Source: Nitrospira sp. MA-1
GTDB lineage: Bacteria > Nitrospirota > Nitrospiria > Nitrospirales > UBA8639
DNA length: 64,000 bases
Direction of reading: 5' to 3'
Assembly: GCA_032139905.1 (NCBI GenBank)
Contig: JAQJDB010000007.1
Span: 620,001 to 684,000 of the forward strand
Part shown: positions 59,714 through 62,676 of the stretch, one piece after another
How positions within the stretch are numbered: the stretch's first letter is position 1
Layout: each line of letters begins with the position of its first letter
Notes under the pieces: model-generated
What the model saw: the letters and a program-made list of their open reading frames with translations, nothing else
Database searches by the model: none
What the model was told of the DNA's origin: nothing
Made by a program: the position numbers and the translations under genes

Positions 59714-59950
59714 TTAATGAACGTGCCCTGAGGAAAACTGGAGTTCCATTCTTCCCCGCTTCCCATTTTTAATTCCTCGGGCTTTGAGAATGGTCGGATC
59801 TACCGTATCTCCGCAATTGAGACATCTCAAGACCTCAAGATGATGAAACTGACCATCGAGATTATAAATGCAATCCCGCACTAACAGTCCTGCGCACCGG
59901 TGGCATTTCATCGTCCTCTCTGCACTCATCTGATCAGTCGTCATGAACAT
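59714..59950 (-). CDS. small zinc-ribbon protein, paralogue 1
   Basis: The 78-residue product (MKCHRCAGLLVRDCIYNLDGQFHHLEVLRCLNCGDTVD) has two CxxC knuckles, as a small zinc ribbon. AAGGAGG precedes the ATG. Paralogue 2 lies at 61716-61904. Both are preceded by nearly the same promoter-operator block with a GTAACTAGTTAC palindrome, so both are probably controlled by the divergent HxlR-type regulator. No function is known. Confidence 0.75.
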   Translation of the reverse strand: MFMTTDQMSAERTMKCHRCAGLLVRDCIYNLDGQFHHLEVLRCLNCGDTVDPTILKARGIKNGKRGRMELQFSSGHVH

Positions 59951-59997
59951 ATTTCCTCCTTTTGGATACGTTGACTTGCATCTGAGATTTCCTGCTG

Positions 59998-60053
59998 GTT
60001 AAGATAAGTAACTAGTTACAAAAGTAAAGTAGATACTGTTAAGTAACCATGAA
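59998..60053. repeat. promoter-operator repeat, copy 1
   Basis: About 51 of 57 aligned bases match 61957-62013. The block contains GTTAAGATAAGTAACTAGTTAC, AAAGTAAAGTAG and AGTAACC, and ends in the HxlR start codon in this copy. It lies between zinc-ribbon paralogue 1 and the HxlR gene. Confidence 0.85.
60008..60019. promoter_or_regulatory. putative HxlR operator, copy 1
   Basis: The perfect 12-base palindrome GTAACTAGTTAC lies in the divergent promoter between the HxlR and zinc-ribbon genes. A GTAAC half-site recurs just before the HxlR ATG. Confidence 0.6.
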
Positions 60054-60486
60054 GTTGCCACCAAGTTCTTTCGGTTGTCCGTTGGACTCTCTCCTTCGCA
60101 TTCTTGCCGGGCCGTGGACGATTTACATTCTTTGCCGCTTGCATACCAATGGAGAAACCCGTTTTGGCCAGCTCAAGCGTCAAATGCCGGGCATTTCATC
60201 GAAAATGTTGACGGAGCGATTGCGATCGTTGGAGAAGGCTGAAATTATCTTCCGTCGCCAAGCATCGACAATTCCCCTCCAGGTGACCTATGGACTCACG
60301 ACGGAAGGTCGTGAACTCACCACCATTCTGGATCAAATCAATACTTTGGCTGACCGATGGCAGGATCAGGAGACAAAGACGGCGAACTCCAGCGTTCAGG
60401 TGAAAGAAGCAAAAAGGAGAAAGGCGGTATCTAACGATTCCGTGATGCCTCCTCTGAAAAAGGGAAGAACTACACCTAAAAATTAG
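60049..60486 (+). CDS. HxlR-family transcription regulator
   Basis: The 145-residue product has the HxlR winged helix (CPLDSLLRILAGPWTIYILCRL, GETRFGQLKRQMPGISSKMLTERLRSLEKAEIIFRR, VTYGLTTEGREL). Cys10 in FGCPLDS is the position of the redox-sensing cysteine in many HxlR proteins (HypR/QorR-like). A basic C-terminal tail (KRRKAVSNDSVMPPLKKGR) extends beyond the fold. It is divergent to zinc-ribbon paralogue 1 and probably regulates it. Confidence 0.88.
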   Translation: MKLPPSSFGCPLDSLLRILAGPWTIYILCRLHTNGETRFGQLKRQMPGISSKMLTERLRSLEKAEIIFRRQASTIPLQVTYGLTTEGRELTTILDQINTLADRWQDQETKTANSSVQVKEAKRRKAVSNDSVMPPLKKGRTTPKN

Positions 60487-60900
60487 GCGATCGTTGCTAC
60501 CGCCAAAGATTGGTTGGACGAGGAAATTCCCCGGATATGGAGGGATGTGAGACATTCCCTCTTTCAATCGGCTCGGAAAGTCGCCTGATGGGAATTTCTC
60601 CTCGACCAAACGCTTTCTCGAAAGTGTGTTTACCGTCGCCAGGCCCTACATGTCGTGAGAAGAGAATCCAACACGGGTGGAAAGACATCTGTGTCTGGTG
60701 TAGCCTGAACGGCTTTTCCTGAAATTTAATCCAAGATGAGTAGTTTCCTGCGGGAAAGGACTCCACCCGATTAGATCGAGAGGTCGAGAAATTCATGAAT
60801 GCGAAAAGGAATGTGTTTCTCCCTTCTTGGAGGTCCTGGCATCATCAGGCCTTTGACGCGGCAATTCCGCTCACGATTTCAAGAAGGACCGGAAGCTGGT
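60487..60900. other. intergenic, nothing recognised
   Basis: This is the space between the convergent HxlR and PDZ genes. No gene or repeat could be supported. Confidence 0.4.
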
Positions 60901-61395
60901 TTAGCTTTTTTCAACTCGAACAAAGTGAAAGTTAATTCCGCCACTGATGCCCTGATTGTCGGGGTCAGATGGTTCATACGTTGCCACGGAAAAATTTTCT
61001 GTGGGCAACGCGTCCTGGAGAGCCAGTCCGAAATCCAACAGGGTAGTTACCTCGACGGAATTGATTTCCTTGATGAGGGCCCGGGGTTTTATTCCAGCAA
61101 GAGCCGCTGGTTTTCCCCCGATTACCTCAAAGACTACCACGCCTTTTGCGCGCTCTAAGCCCAAATAATCTCGTATCTCTTCGTCCACTTCTCCGACGAT
61201 GATGCCGAAGTCTTCTCCCAGCTTTATGGCCTTTTCCTTGGTCATAGCCTGGGAAGCCGGTTCGGCCTGAAGCAGATAGGGGGTCCCCAACGAAAAAGCC
61301 AGGATCATGCTCACAATCGCGGCCTGGCCAACGTGAGCAATCATTCCGGCAAGCTGGTGGATCCTCTGTTGGATCGTCGGACGAATCATATTCAT
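60901..61395 (-). CDS. secreted PDZ-domain protein
   Basis: The product of about 164 residues has a signal or anchor (IVSMILAFSLGTPYLLQAEPA) and one PDZ domain (DYLGLERAKGVVVFEVIGGKPAALAGIKPRALIKEINSVEVTTLLDFGLALQDA), with no protease domain. It probably binds a peptide partner in the periplasm. The ATG at 61395 (or 61398) follows GGGAGG. It is the last gene of a three-gene operon with zinc-ribbon paralogue 2. Confidence 0.78.
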   Translation of the reverse strand: MNMIRPTIQQRIHQLAGMIAHVGQAAIVSMILAFSLGTPYLLQAEPASQAMTKEKAIKLGEDFGIIVGEVDEEIRDYLGLERAKGVVVFEVIGGKPAALAGIKPRALIKEINSVEVTTLLDFGLALQDALPTENFSVATYEPSDPDNQGISGGINFHFVRVEKS

Positions 61396-61489
61396 CATTA
61401 CCTCCCTGGTATCGCACAGACTCTTGAAATATTTAATTTCCCCGAGGAAACCAACGTTGCTTTTTCCGTCGCATTCATGAAGTGCGTTG

Positions 61490-61657
61490 TTAGGGAACAT
61501 CCTTCACGCCGGGTATATTCCTGGAATGTCGCGTGAGGCTTCGTGTGAATAGCGGGATCATTCTGGCGGTCGAGAACAATCCCCACAGGGAACCGGCCAT
61601 GATCATGACCGACCCTATATACTGATAGGCAGCACTCCCTCCGATGATTTCTGTCAT
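61490..61657 (-). CDS. 55-residue membrane protein
   Basis: MTEIIGGSAAYQYIGSVMIM then AGSLWGLFSTARMIPLF forms one membrane helix, followed by a basic tail (TRSLTRHSRNIPG). AAAGGAGTTGCCA precedes the ATG. It lies between the zinc-ribbon and PDZ genes. Unknown family. Confidence 0.55.
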   Translation of the reverse strand: MTEIIGGSAAYQYIGSVMIMAGSLWGLFSTARMIPLFTRSLTRHSRNIPGVKDVP

Positions 61658-61715
61658 TGGCAACTCCTTTTCGCGTTCTTCACGCAATGCACTTGGAATG
61701 ACAAAGATGTGGCGC

Positions 61716-61904
61716 TCAGACAAGCACCCCTTCCTGCTTTGCTGGAATTCTACCGTTTGGTATTTGACGGGTTTTCAGGAAATCGAGATCGACGACATGA
61801 CCGCAATTGAGGCATCTCCCCATTTCAATTTCTAAAAACTGTCCGTCCACGTTAAAAATACTGTCTCTCACCATGAATCCTCTGCAGCGTTCGCATTCTC
61901 CCAT
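61716..61904 (-). CDS. small zinc-ribbon protein, paralogue 2
   Basis: The 62-residue product (MGECERCRGFMVRDSIFNVDGQFLEIEMGRCLNCGHVVDLDFLKT) shares the two CxxC knuckles and the MVRDSIFNVDGQF core with paralogue 1. It lies downstream of the second promoter-operator block and heads an operon with the small membrane and PDZ proteins. Confidence 0.75.
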   Translation of the reverse strand: MGECERCRGFMVRDSIFNVDGQFLEIEMGRCLNCGHVVDLDFLKTRQIPNGRIPAKQEGVLV

Positions 61905-61956
61905 TGTGCACCTTCCTTAAGATTATAACCATTTTTGTCTTTGGCCGGTTTTATAA

Positions 61957-62013
61957 GTTAAGATAAGTAACTAGTTACTAAAGTAAAGTAGGTTCTATAA
62001 AGTAACCAATGAA
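61957..62013. repeat. promoter-operator repeat, copy 2
   Basis: This copy of the block at 59998-60053 keeps the palindrome and half-site spacing. It even retains AGTAACCAATGAA, matching AGTAACCATGAA at the HxlR start, but has no HxlR gene behind it. Confidence 0.85.
61967..61978. promoter_or_regulatory. putative HxlR operator, copy 2
   Basis: GTAACTAGTTAC is identical to the operator at 60008-60019. It lies upstream of zinc-ribbon paralogue 2, so one HxlR protein may control both units. Confidence 0.6.
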
Positions 62014-62292
62014 TTGCTTGAAAAATTATTCGAATGCCAACTGGTTCCCTTCCTGTTGCGCGGGGAAACTTCTCCATTGAGATTCCGGACTGATGGCAAA
62101 AGGAACCGGAAAGGTTAGTTTTGAACCGCTCACATGACAAATGTCCCGTATGTTCCCGGAATGTTGACGGACCGGTCAGATGAATGCGCTGGCCGGTCTG
62201 GGGAAGGGAGGGCAGACCAGGGTGACCAACAACAACCTTTGAGGGCGATGTGACGATCCTGATGTTGTATGATTCAAAAAGGAAATAATCTG

Positions 62293-62676
62293 ATGAGATT
62301 GATTAAAGATGGAGGGATGAAGCAAAGCTTTTATGGAGGAACCCTAGCCTTTGTGATGATTATGTGCCTCTCAGTGGTTGAACCCGGTCATCCTGGGACC
62401 ATTCTGAATGGTGATCAACCCGACGCCCTGCCACCCTCCGAAGAACGACTTCAACAGGGCAAAGCCTTATATGAGGGGGTTGCCAGGTGTATGCATTGTC
62501 ATGGCCAGACCGCCGTGCGACGACCTCTAACCAAACAAGAACTTTTTTCTATTATTCAATTGGGGGTACCGGGGACATCTCATATGCCTTTTAAGCATCT
62601 GCTTTCCGATGAGGAGATTTGGTCTATCGTTTATTATCAACTCCATGGCATTTGCAAACACGGATGCACTGACTAA
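62293..62676 (+). CDS. small c-type cytochrome
   Basis: The 127-residue product has a signal or anchor (YGGTLAFVMIMCLSVVEP) and one haem site: YEGVARCMHCHGQTAVRRPL, with a likely Met ligand in PGTSHMPFKHLLSDEEIWSIVYYQLHGI, the class-I cytochrome c pattern. A CKHGC segment near the C-terminus is unusual. The ATG at 62293 follows AAAGGAAATAATCTG; an ATG at 62269 is possible. No oxidase or other partner is adjacent. Confidence 0.85.
   Translation: MRLIKDGGMKQSFYGGTLAFVMIMCLSVVEPGHPGTILNGDQPDALPPSEERLQQGKALYEGVARCMHCHGQTAVRRPLTKQELFSIIQLGVPGTSHMPFKHLLSDEEIWSIVYYQLHGICKHGCTD

Follow-up and report, generated by a model that had tools for sequence, protein, structure and literature searches.

The window analysed is a 64,000-nucleotide stretch of the genome of Nitrospira sp. 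MA-1, a member of the Nitrospirales. Within it, two copies of a short block, termed op1 and op2, rank first among the direct repeats, at 59998-60058 and 61957-62017, with 85% identity over 61 ungapped nucleotides and a distance of 1,959 bp from one copy to the other. Over the 51 nucleotides from GTTAAG to GTAACC, 5 positions differ between op1 and op2 (90%), in agreement with the first-pass annotation, which had described two blocks about 90% identical, each with a palindrome. Op1 lies between the gene for the regulator HxlR1 and the divergent zinc-ribbon gene ZnR1, and op2 precedes an operon of a second zinc ribbon (ZnR2), a small membrane (TM) ORF and a PDZ protein gene. This layout is also as first described, with the starts of the TM and PDZ genes now revised by conservation to 61657 and 61398 (Table 1).

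Table 1. Features of the locus, with positions in the window, strand and basis of the assignment.
Feature	Position	Strand	Basis
ZnR1, zinc-ribbon protein of 78 aa (CxxC...CxNC), transcribed divergently from HxlR	59714..59950	-	ORF; orthologues adjoin HxlR in genus and family
Control block 1 (op1), predicted shared ZnR1/HxlR promoter/operator	59998..60048		Direct repeat; kept in 13 genus genomes
Possible ZnR1 promoter: -35 TTTACT (60028-60023), 16-bp spacer, -10 TATCTT (60006-60001)	60001..60028	-	By eye, 8/12 consensus
Op1 palindrome GTAACTAGTTAC, genus-specific part	60008..60019		Exact search and alignment
Op1 core AAAGTAAAGTAG-N7-AAAGTAAC, 1 mismatch, proposed main HxlR operator	60021..60047	+	Search of 48 family genomes
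HxlR1, HxlR/DUF24 regulator, 145 aa, Cys10	60049..60486	+	PF01638 E=6.5e-25; orthologue alignment
PDZ protein, 165 aa, conserved start MMNMIRP	60901..61398	-	DegP/HtrA PDZ matches; dN/dS median 0.13
55-aa ORF with one TM segment (MTEIIGG...), conservation weak	61490..61657	-	Start set by conservation; dN/dS median 0.585
ZnR2, 62-aa zinc-ribbon paralogue, heads ZnR2-TM-PDZ operon	61716..61904	-	ORF; ZnR2 clade support 99/98
Control block 2 (op2)	61957..62007		Direct repeat
Op2 palindrome GTAACTAGTTAC	61967..61978		Exact search
Op2 core, 0 mismatches to pattern	61980..62006	+	Search of 48 family genomes
HxlR2 pseudogene remnant, CDS positions 6-170 and weakly 285-342, middle deleted	62013..62233	+	nhmmer E=1e-5, second piece 0.04
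Cytochrome c gene, downstream of HxlR2 pseudogene; first intact gene rightward of op2	62269..62676	+	PF13442 E=4.7e-8

HxlR1 scores 87.2 bits with the PF01638 model over residues 19-108, well above the cut-off of 20.8. Its Cys10 is invariant in 9 aligned HxlR orthologues and also in the intact genus copies, and it is the generic cysteine of the DUF24/HxlR family, not one special to HxlR1. Apart from HxlR1, the genome has a single further HxlR gene (L005, G000:C7:71329-71577). It is divergent from an ORF that by eye is redoxin/thioredoxin-like, and its product is without the CPLD-type N-terminal Cys. Purifying selection is clear for HxlR (median dN/dS 0.18), ZnR1 (0.23), ZnR2 (0.29) and the PDZ protein, and weak for the membrane ORF.

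The two zinc ribbons, both of the CxxC/CxNC type, are members of a small family that is matched 12 times in this genome and occurs in 58 of the 59 genomes searched. Among the curated models, no NCBIfam model matches ZnR1 and its Pfam matches are all below threshold. For the PDZ protein, the Pfam PDZ models fall below their cut-off and DegP/HtrA-type models match. This protein is probably periplasmic because its hydrophobic N-terminus, judged by eye, resembles a Sec signal. PDZ relatives occur in almost all genomes of the family, hence the copy in this operon is taken to be the extra one. A second PDZ paralogue is present at G000:C6:671894-672394, 52% identical and with one stop within the match.

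Both blocks contain a perfect copy of the palindrome GTAACTAGTTAC, the count of which at up to 2 mismatches was reached by none of 100 shuffles. The first-pass annotation had proposed a genome search for more such sites; in the whole 4.76-Mb genome, exact copies are found in op1 and op2 only, and the longer block pattern, at up to 3 mismatches, likewise finds nothing beyond these two. One near-palindrome, at G000:C7:1494990, was rejected as a site, being upstream of an unrelated XRE/LexA-like gene with the core described below missing. Exact palindromes were found in 13 of 59 genomes, all of the same genus. Nine species have both blocks, 1.9-2.3 kb apart and in the order ZnR1, block, HxlR, PDZ, TM, ZnR2, block; orthologous loci are found in the Nitrospirales bacterium NPIRA03 and NPIRA06 and Nitrospiraceae bacterium UBA8639 records. 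An identity of the repeat as mobile element or structured RNA instead of operator, raised by the frequent mobility of intergenic repeats, is extremely improbable given that there are two copies only, at a fixed syntenic place across the genus, and that an Rfam search for structured RNA gave no match up to E=1.

Five species have the same sequence throughout the 30 bp of op2 that run from -10 to +20 relative to its palindrome, and identity drops to 42-79% in the DNA behind the block, where the pseudogene lies. The palindrome is retained in 8 of 9 op2 copies, with a slightly degenerate right half of op2 in G010, G016 and G004, which suggests that the half-sites on the HxlR side of op2 may be dispensable in these three. 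In G003 (NPIRA06, L058) it is the op1 palindrome that has mutated, to GTAACCAGTTAC; there ZnR1 is frameshifted, op2 is perfect and HxlR is intact.

It had been stated that the second block keeps the surroundings of the HxlR start codon, which is correct, and that the regulator itself is absent. An intact gene is indeed missing after op2, but a decayed remnant of it, HxlR2, is present. This was identified with a DNA profile built from 14 HxlR genes and run over the sequence that follows op2, the block being left out, and matches were obtained in G012 (E=1.7e-13), G003 (8e-6), this genome (1e-5) and G017 (2e-4). Among 900 dinucleotide shuffles the best match had E=10, and bit scores of 39.0 and 13.4 compare with 0.2 or less in the shuffles, the target sets differing in size. 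A naive pairwise DNA alignment of HxlR2 was weak, with 14 of 500 shuffles as good, and is superseded by the profile search. In G010, G016 and G004 the DNA profile recognised no remnant. Other relatives show the gene at different stages. The HxlR2 of G019 has almost its full length, with 77% identity across residues 1-66, and is broken by a TAA and a frameshift. G013 has an intact 123-aa HxlR whose neighbouring ribbon clusters with ZnR2 (support 96/90; ZnR2 group 99/98), although the G013 contig stops inside the ribbon gene and unit 1 may lie beyond. In the outgroup genus G024 there is one undivided unit of HxlR, operator, ZnR and PDZ.

From these comparisons it is concluded that the divergent ZnR/operator/HxlR unit was duplicated in the genus and that the second HxlR was then lost by pseudogenisation. 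Duplication followed by complementary loss accounts for the remnants, the broken HxlR2 of G019, the intact HxlR of G013 and the single unit of G024. The ancestral unit would have been a self-regulating HxlR gene divergent from a small zinc-ribbon gene, with a PDZ gene following in some lineages and with the two promoters and the operator for HxlR combined in one compact block. After the duplication, copy 1 would have retained HxlR and ZnR1, and copy 2 the ZnR2-TM-PDZ operon and its operator while its HxlR decayed. No TM or PDZ relics were seen behind ZnR1, where a ZnR2-TM-PDZ operon profile matched the ZnR part only. The HxlR DNA tree is too weak to date the duplication.

Similarity of the two blocks could in principle be maintained by gene conversion instead of by selection on each. 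In G019 (L064, oriented positions 213 and 2507) the two blocks, and likewise the HxlR start regions, hardly differ from each other, which suggests recent local gene conversion in this species, followed by HxlR2 decay. The other eight two-block species, however, share an op2 signature, a T after TTAC where op1 has A or C, and in these op1 and op2 vary independently of each other, so that conversion is a very unlikely explanation for the blocks as a whole.

The palindrome had been put forward as the operator. It is present in both blocks, but it is specific to the genus, and the more widely conserved part is a core of about 27 bp, AAAGTAAAGTAG-N7-AAAGTAAC, that abuts the HxlR ATG. In an alignment of 30 sites, in which a 12-bp anchor is fixed by construction, the palindrome is replaced in other genera by TAACTAATTAC, TATCTAATTAC or ACAATAGTTAA and the core stays. 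A search of 48 family genomes found the core in 20 of the 20 that have an HxlR orthologue and in 0 of the 28 that do not, and its positions are at HxlR starts or op2 and nowhere else. In G020 (L086/L109) the HxlR orthologue retains the operator core, and a zinc ribbon was not found on the divergent side. The centre of the core, AGTAGGTACT, is found at up to 2 mismatches upstream of 25 of 45 HxlR genes, as against 7.4% of shuffles; most of these genes are only 31-55% identical. Among the 45, however, two are closely related orthologues, and genes that share ancestry do not count independently. Since the core tracks the HxlR orthologue and AGTAGGTACT recurs before distant HxlR genes, the block is read as an HxlR-type operator, and the palindrome as a genus-specific extension of it within the proposed ZnR promoter spacer. 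Additional sites, at up to 3 mismatches, were found neither in this genome nor in 47 relatives, and the predicted regulon is therefore local, comprising HxlR, ZnR1 and ZnR2-TM-PDZ. The literature consulted contains no published operator sequence of the core type.

Promoter-like elements can be seen by eye in both directions of the blocks. The ATA of the candidate ZnR1 -10 is invariant over all aligned sites, and a sigma-70 scan called neither divergent promoter, the ZnR1 candidate being below the scan threshold. Between the block and the HxlR ATG no Shine-Dalgarno sequence is apparent by eye, which suggests that the HxlR mRNA is possibly leaderless. Promoter elements alone could account for part of the block conservation, and op2 might have been retained merely as the promoter of ZnR2-TM-PDZ, perhaps also of the cytochrome c gene, with HxlR inactive there. 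Conservation is among the highest at the -10-like ATA columns, and the right half of op2 drifts in G010, G016 and G004, as would be expected on such an account. Yet the palindrome, kept in all but one of the op2 copies, sits in the ZnR promoter spacer, where no fixed sequence is needed; the core resembles DNA before distant HxlR genes; and nothing similar is present in the family genomes without an HxlR orthologue. A purely promoter role for op2 is accordingly thought unlikely.

Control of op2 in trans by HxlR1 appears to be the best explanation of what can be read from the sequence, namely the repeat, the pseudogene, the duplicated unit, the persistence of op2 without its own regulator and the lack of further sites. 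It is favoured because op2 has been kept beside a dead HxlR2 with an intact HxlR1 2 kb away. The remaining HxlR dimer would most likely bind both blocks and cover their back-to-back promoters, and HxlR1 would in this way repress ZnR1, itself and ZnR2-TM-PDZ together until an electrophile or oxidant modified Cys10 and so released it. This reading, in which a single surviving HxlR represses both halves of a duplicated unit and is released through Cys10, is considered reasonably probable. The first-pass proposal of one HxlR protein for both units remains in this form the best reading, with op1 and op2 unique in the genome and op2 persisting in nine species, although the palindrome is not the essential operator.

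The direction of control is inferred to be repression rather than activation because the operator overlaps the promoters. However, the HxlR of B. subtilis activates and does not repress (PMC7835342), so that either direction is possible for HxlR1. A thiol or electrophile signal, proposed from the invariant Cys10, and a role of the outputs in envelope or thiol stress are likewise putative, and that the zinc-ribbon and PDZ products serve envelope or redox stress is only a guess.

Since HxlR2 was lost, the rightward side of op2 (62007-62676) has faced the cytochrome c gene, and promoter capture is possible. The cytochrome c gene is behind op2 in 5 of the 9 two-block species, and a different gene is found there in G010, G016 and G004. 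A further reading, in which the HxlR2 promoter of op2 has been captured by downstream genes such as cytochrome c and the zinc ribbons are more than outputs, feeding back as redox or zinc co-regulators on HxlR itself or on transcription, is decidedly doubtful. If true, capture and ribbon feedback would make an undescribed HxlR-zinc-ribbon circuit specific to the Nitrospirales.

The locus is a clean natural example in which the two copies of a duplicated regulatory unit have lost opposite parts, one keeping the regulator and the other an operator-driven operon, with relatives in which HxlR2 is intact, freshly broken or heavily decayed. A precise candidate operator is now available, and zinc ribbons of an unstudied family, present in many copies in the Nitrospirales, have become linked to a probable thiol-based regulator.

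Solved relatives of HxlR1 include HxlR, HypR (YybR), YodB and QsrR. Sensing in the HxlR/DUF24 family is Cys-based, with the N-terminal Cys as the sensing residue (PMC7835342, PMC8063818). The thiol switches YodB, QsrR and HypR (PMC8063818; PDB 5hs7, 4a5m, 4hqm) have the family and the N-terminal Cys in common with HxlR1, but no equivalent of YodB Cys101 is established in HxlR1 and the target genes also differ. The formaldehyde sensor HxlR of B. subtilis shares the family and the helix-1 Cys. It crosslinks this Cys with a Lys two residues on (PMC7835342), where HxlR1 has Leu12, and a Cys-Lys formaldehyde bridge would therefore be unavailable in the B. subtilis manner. On the zinc-ribbon side, the ZnR1 model weakly resembles the zinc domain of MqsA/YgiT (Foldseek E=0.07; low-confidence model, pLDDT 64.6), and two CxxC-type knuckles are common to ZnR1 and this N-terminal domain. 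The ZnR proteins are without MqsA's HTH antitoxin domain, and an MqsR-like toxin was not recognised alongside.

Divergent autoregulated units are known in the HxlR/DUF24 family, for example rrpA-mdaB and rrpB-nfrA of Campylobacter (PMC8765430). As is predicted for the HxlR1 unit, a small winged-helix regulator is there divergent from its target and binds in the intergenic region between them as well as at its own promoter. The rrp targets are quinone/flavin reductases, whereas those predicted for HxlR1 are zinc ribbons, and the rrp inverted repeats TATCAT and TTATAA differ from the HxlR1 block sequence (PMC8765430). HxlR1 also stays below the RrpA and RrpB NCBIfam cut-offs of 175 and 185 bits (NF047364/NF047367), with scores of 50.5 and 49.1. 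Unlike the Campylobacter units, the HxlR1 unit has been duplicated with one regulator lost. The locus should be seen as an autoregulated HxlR unit of a known kind, in which the new elements are this evolutionary twist and the local two-promoter regulon.
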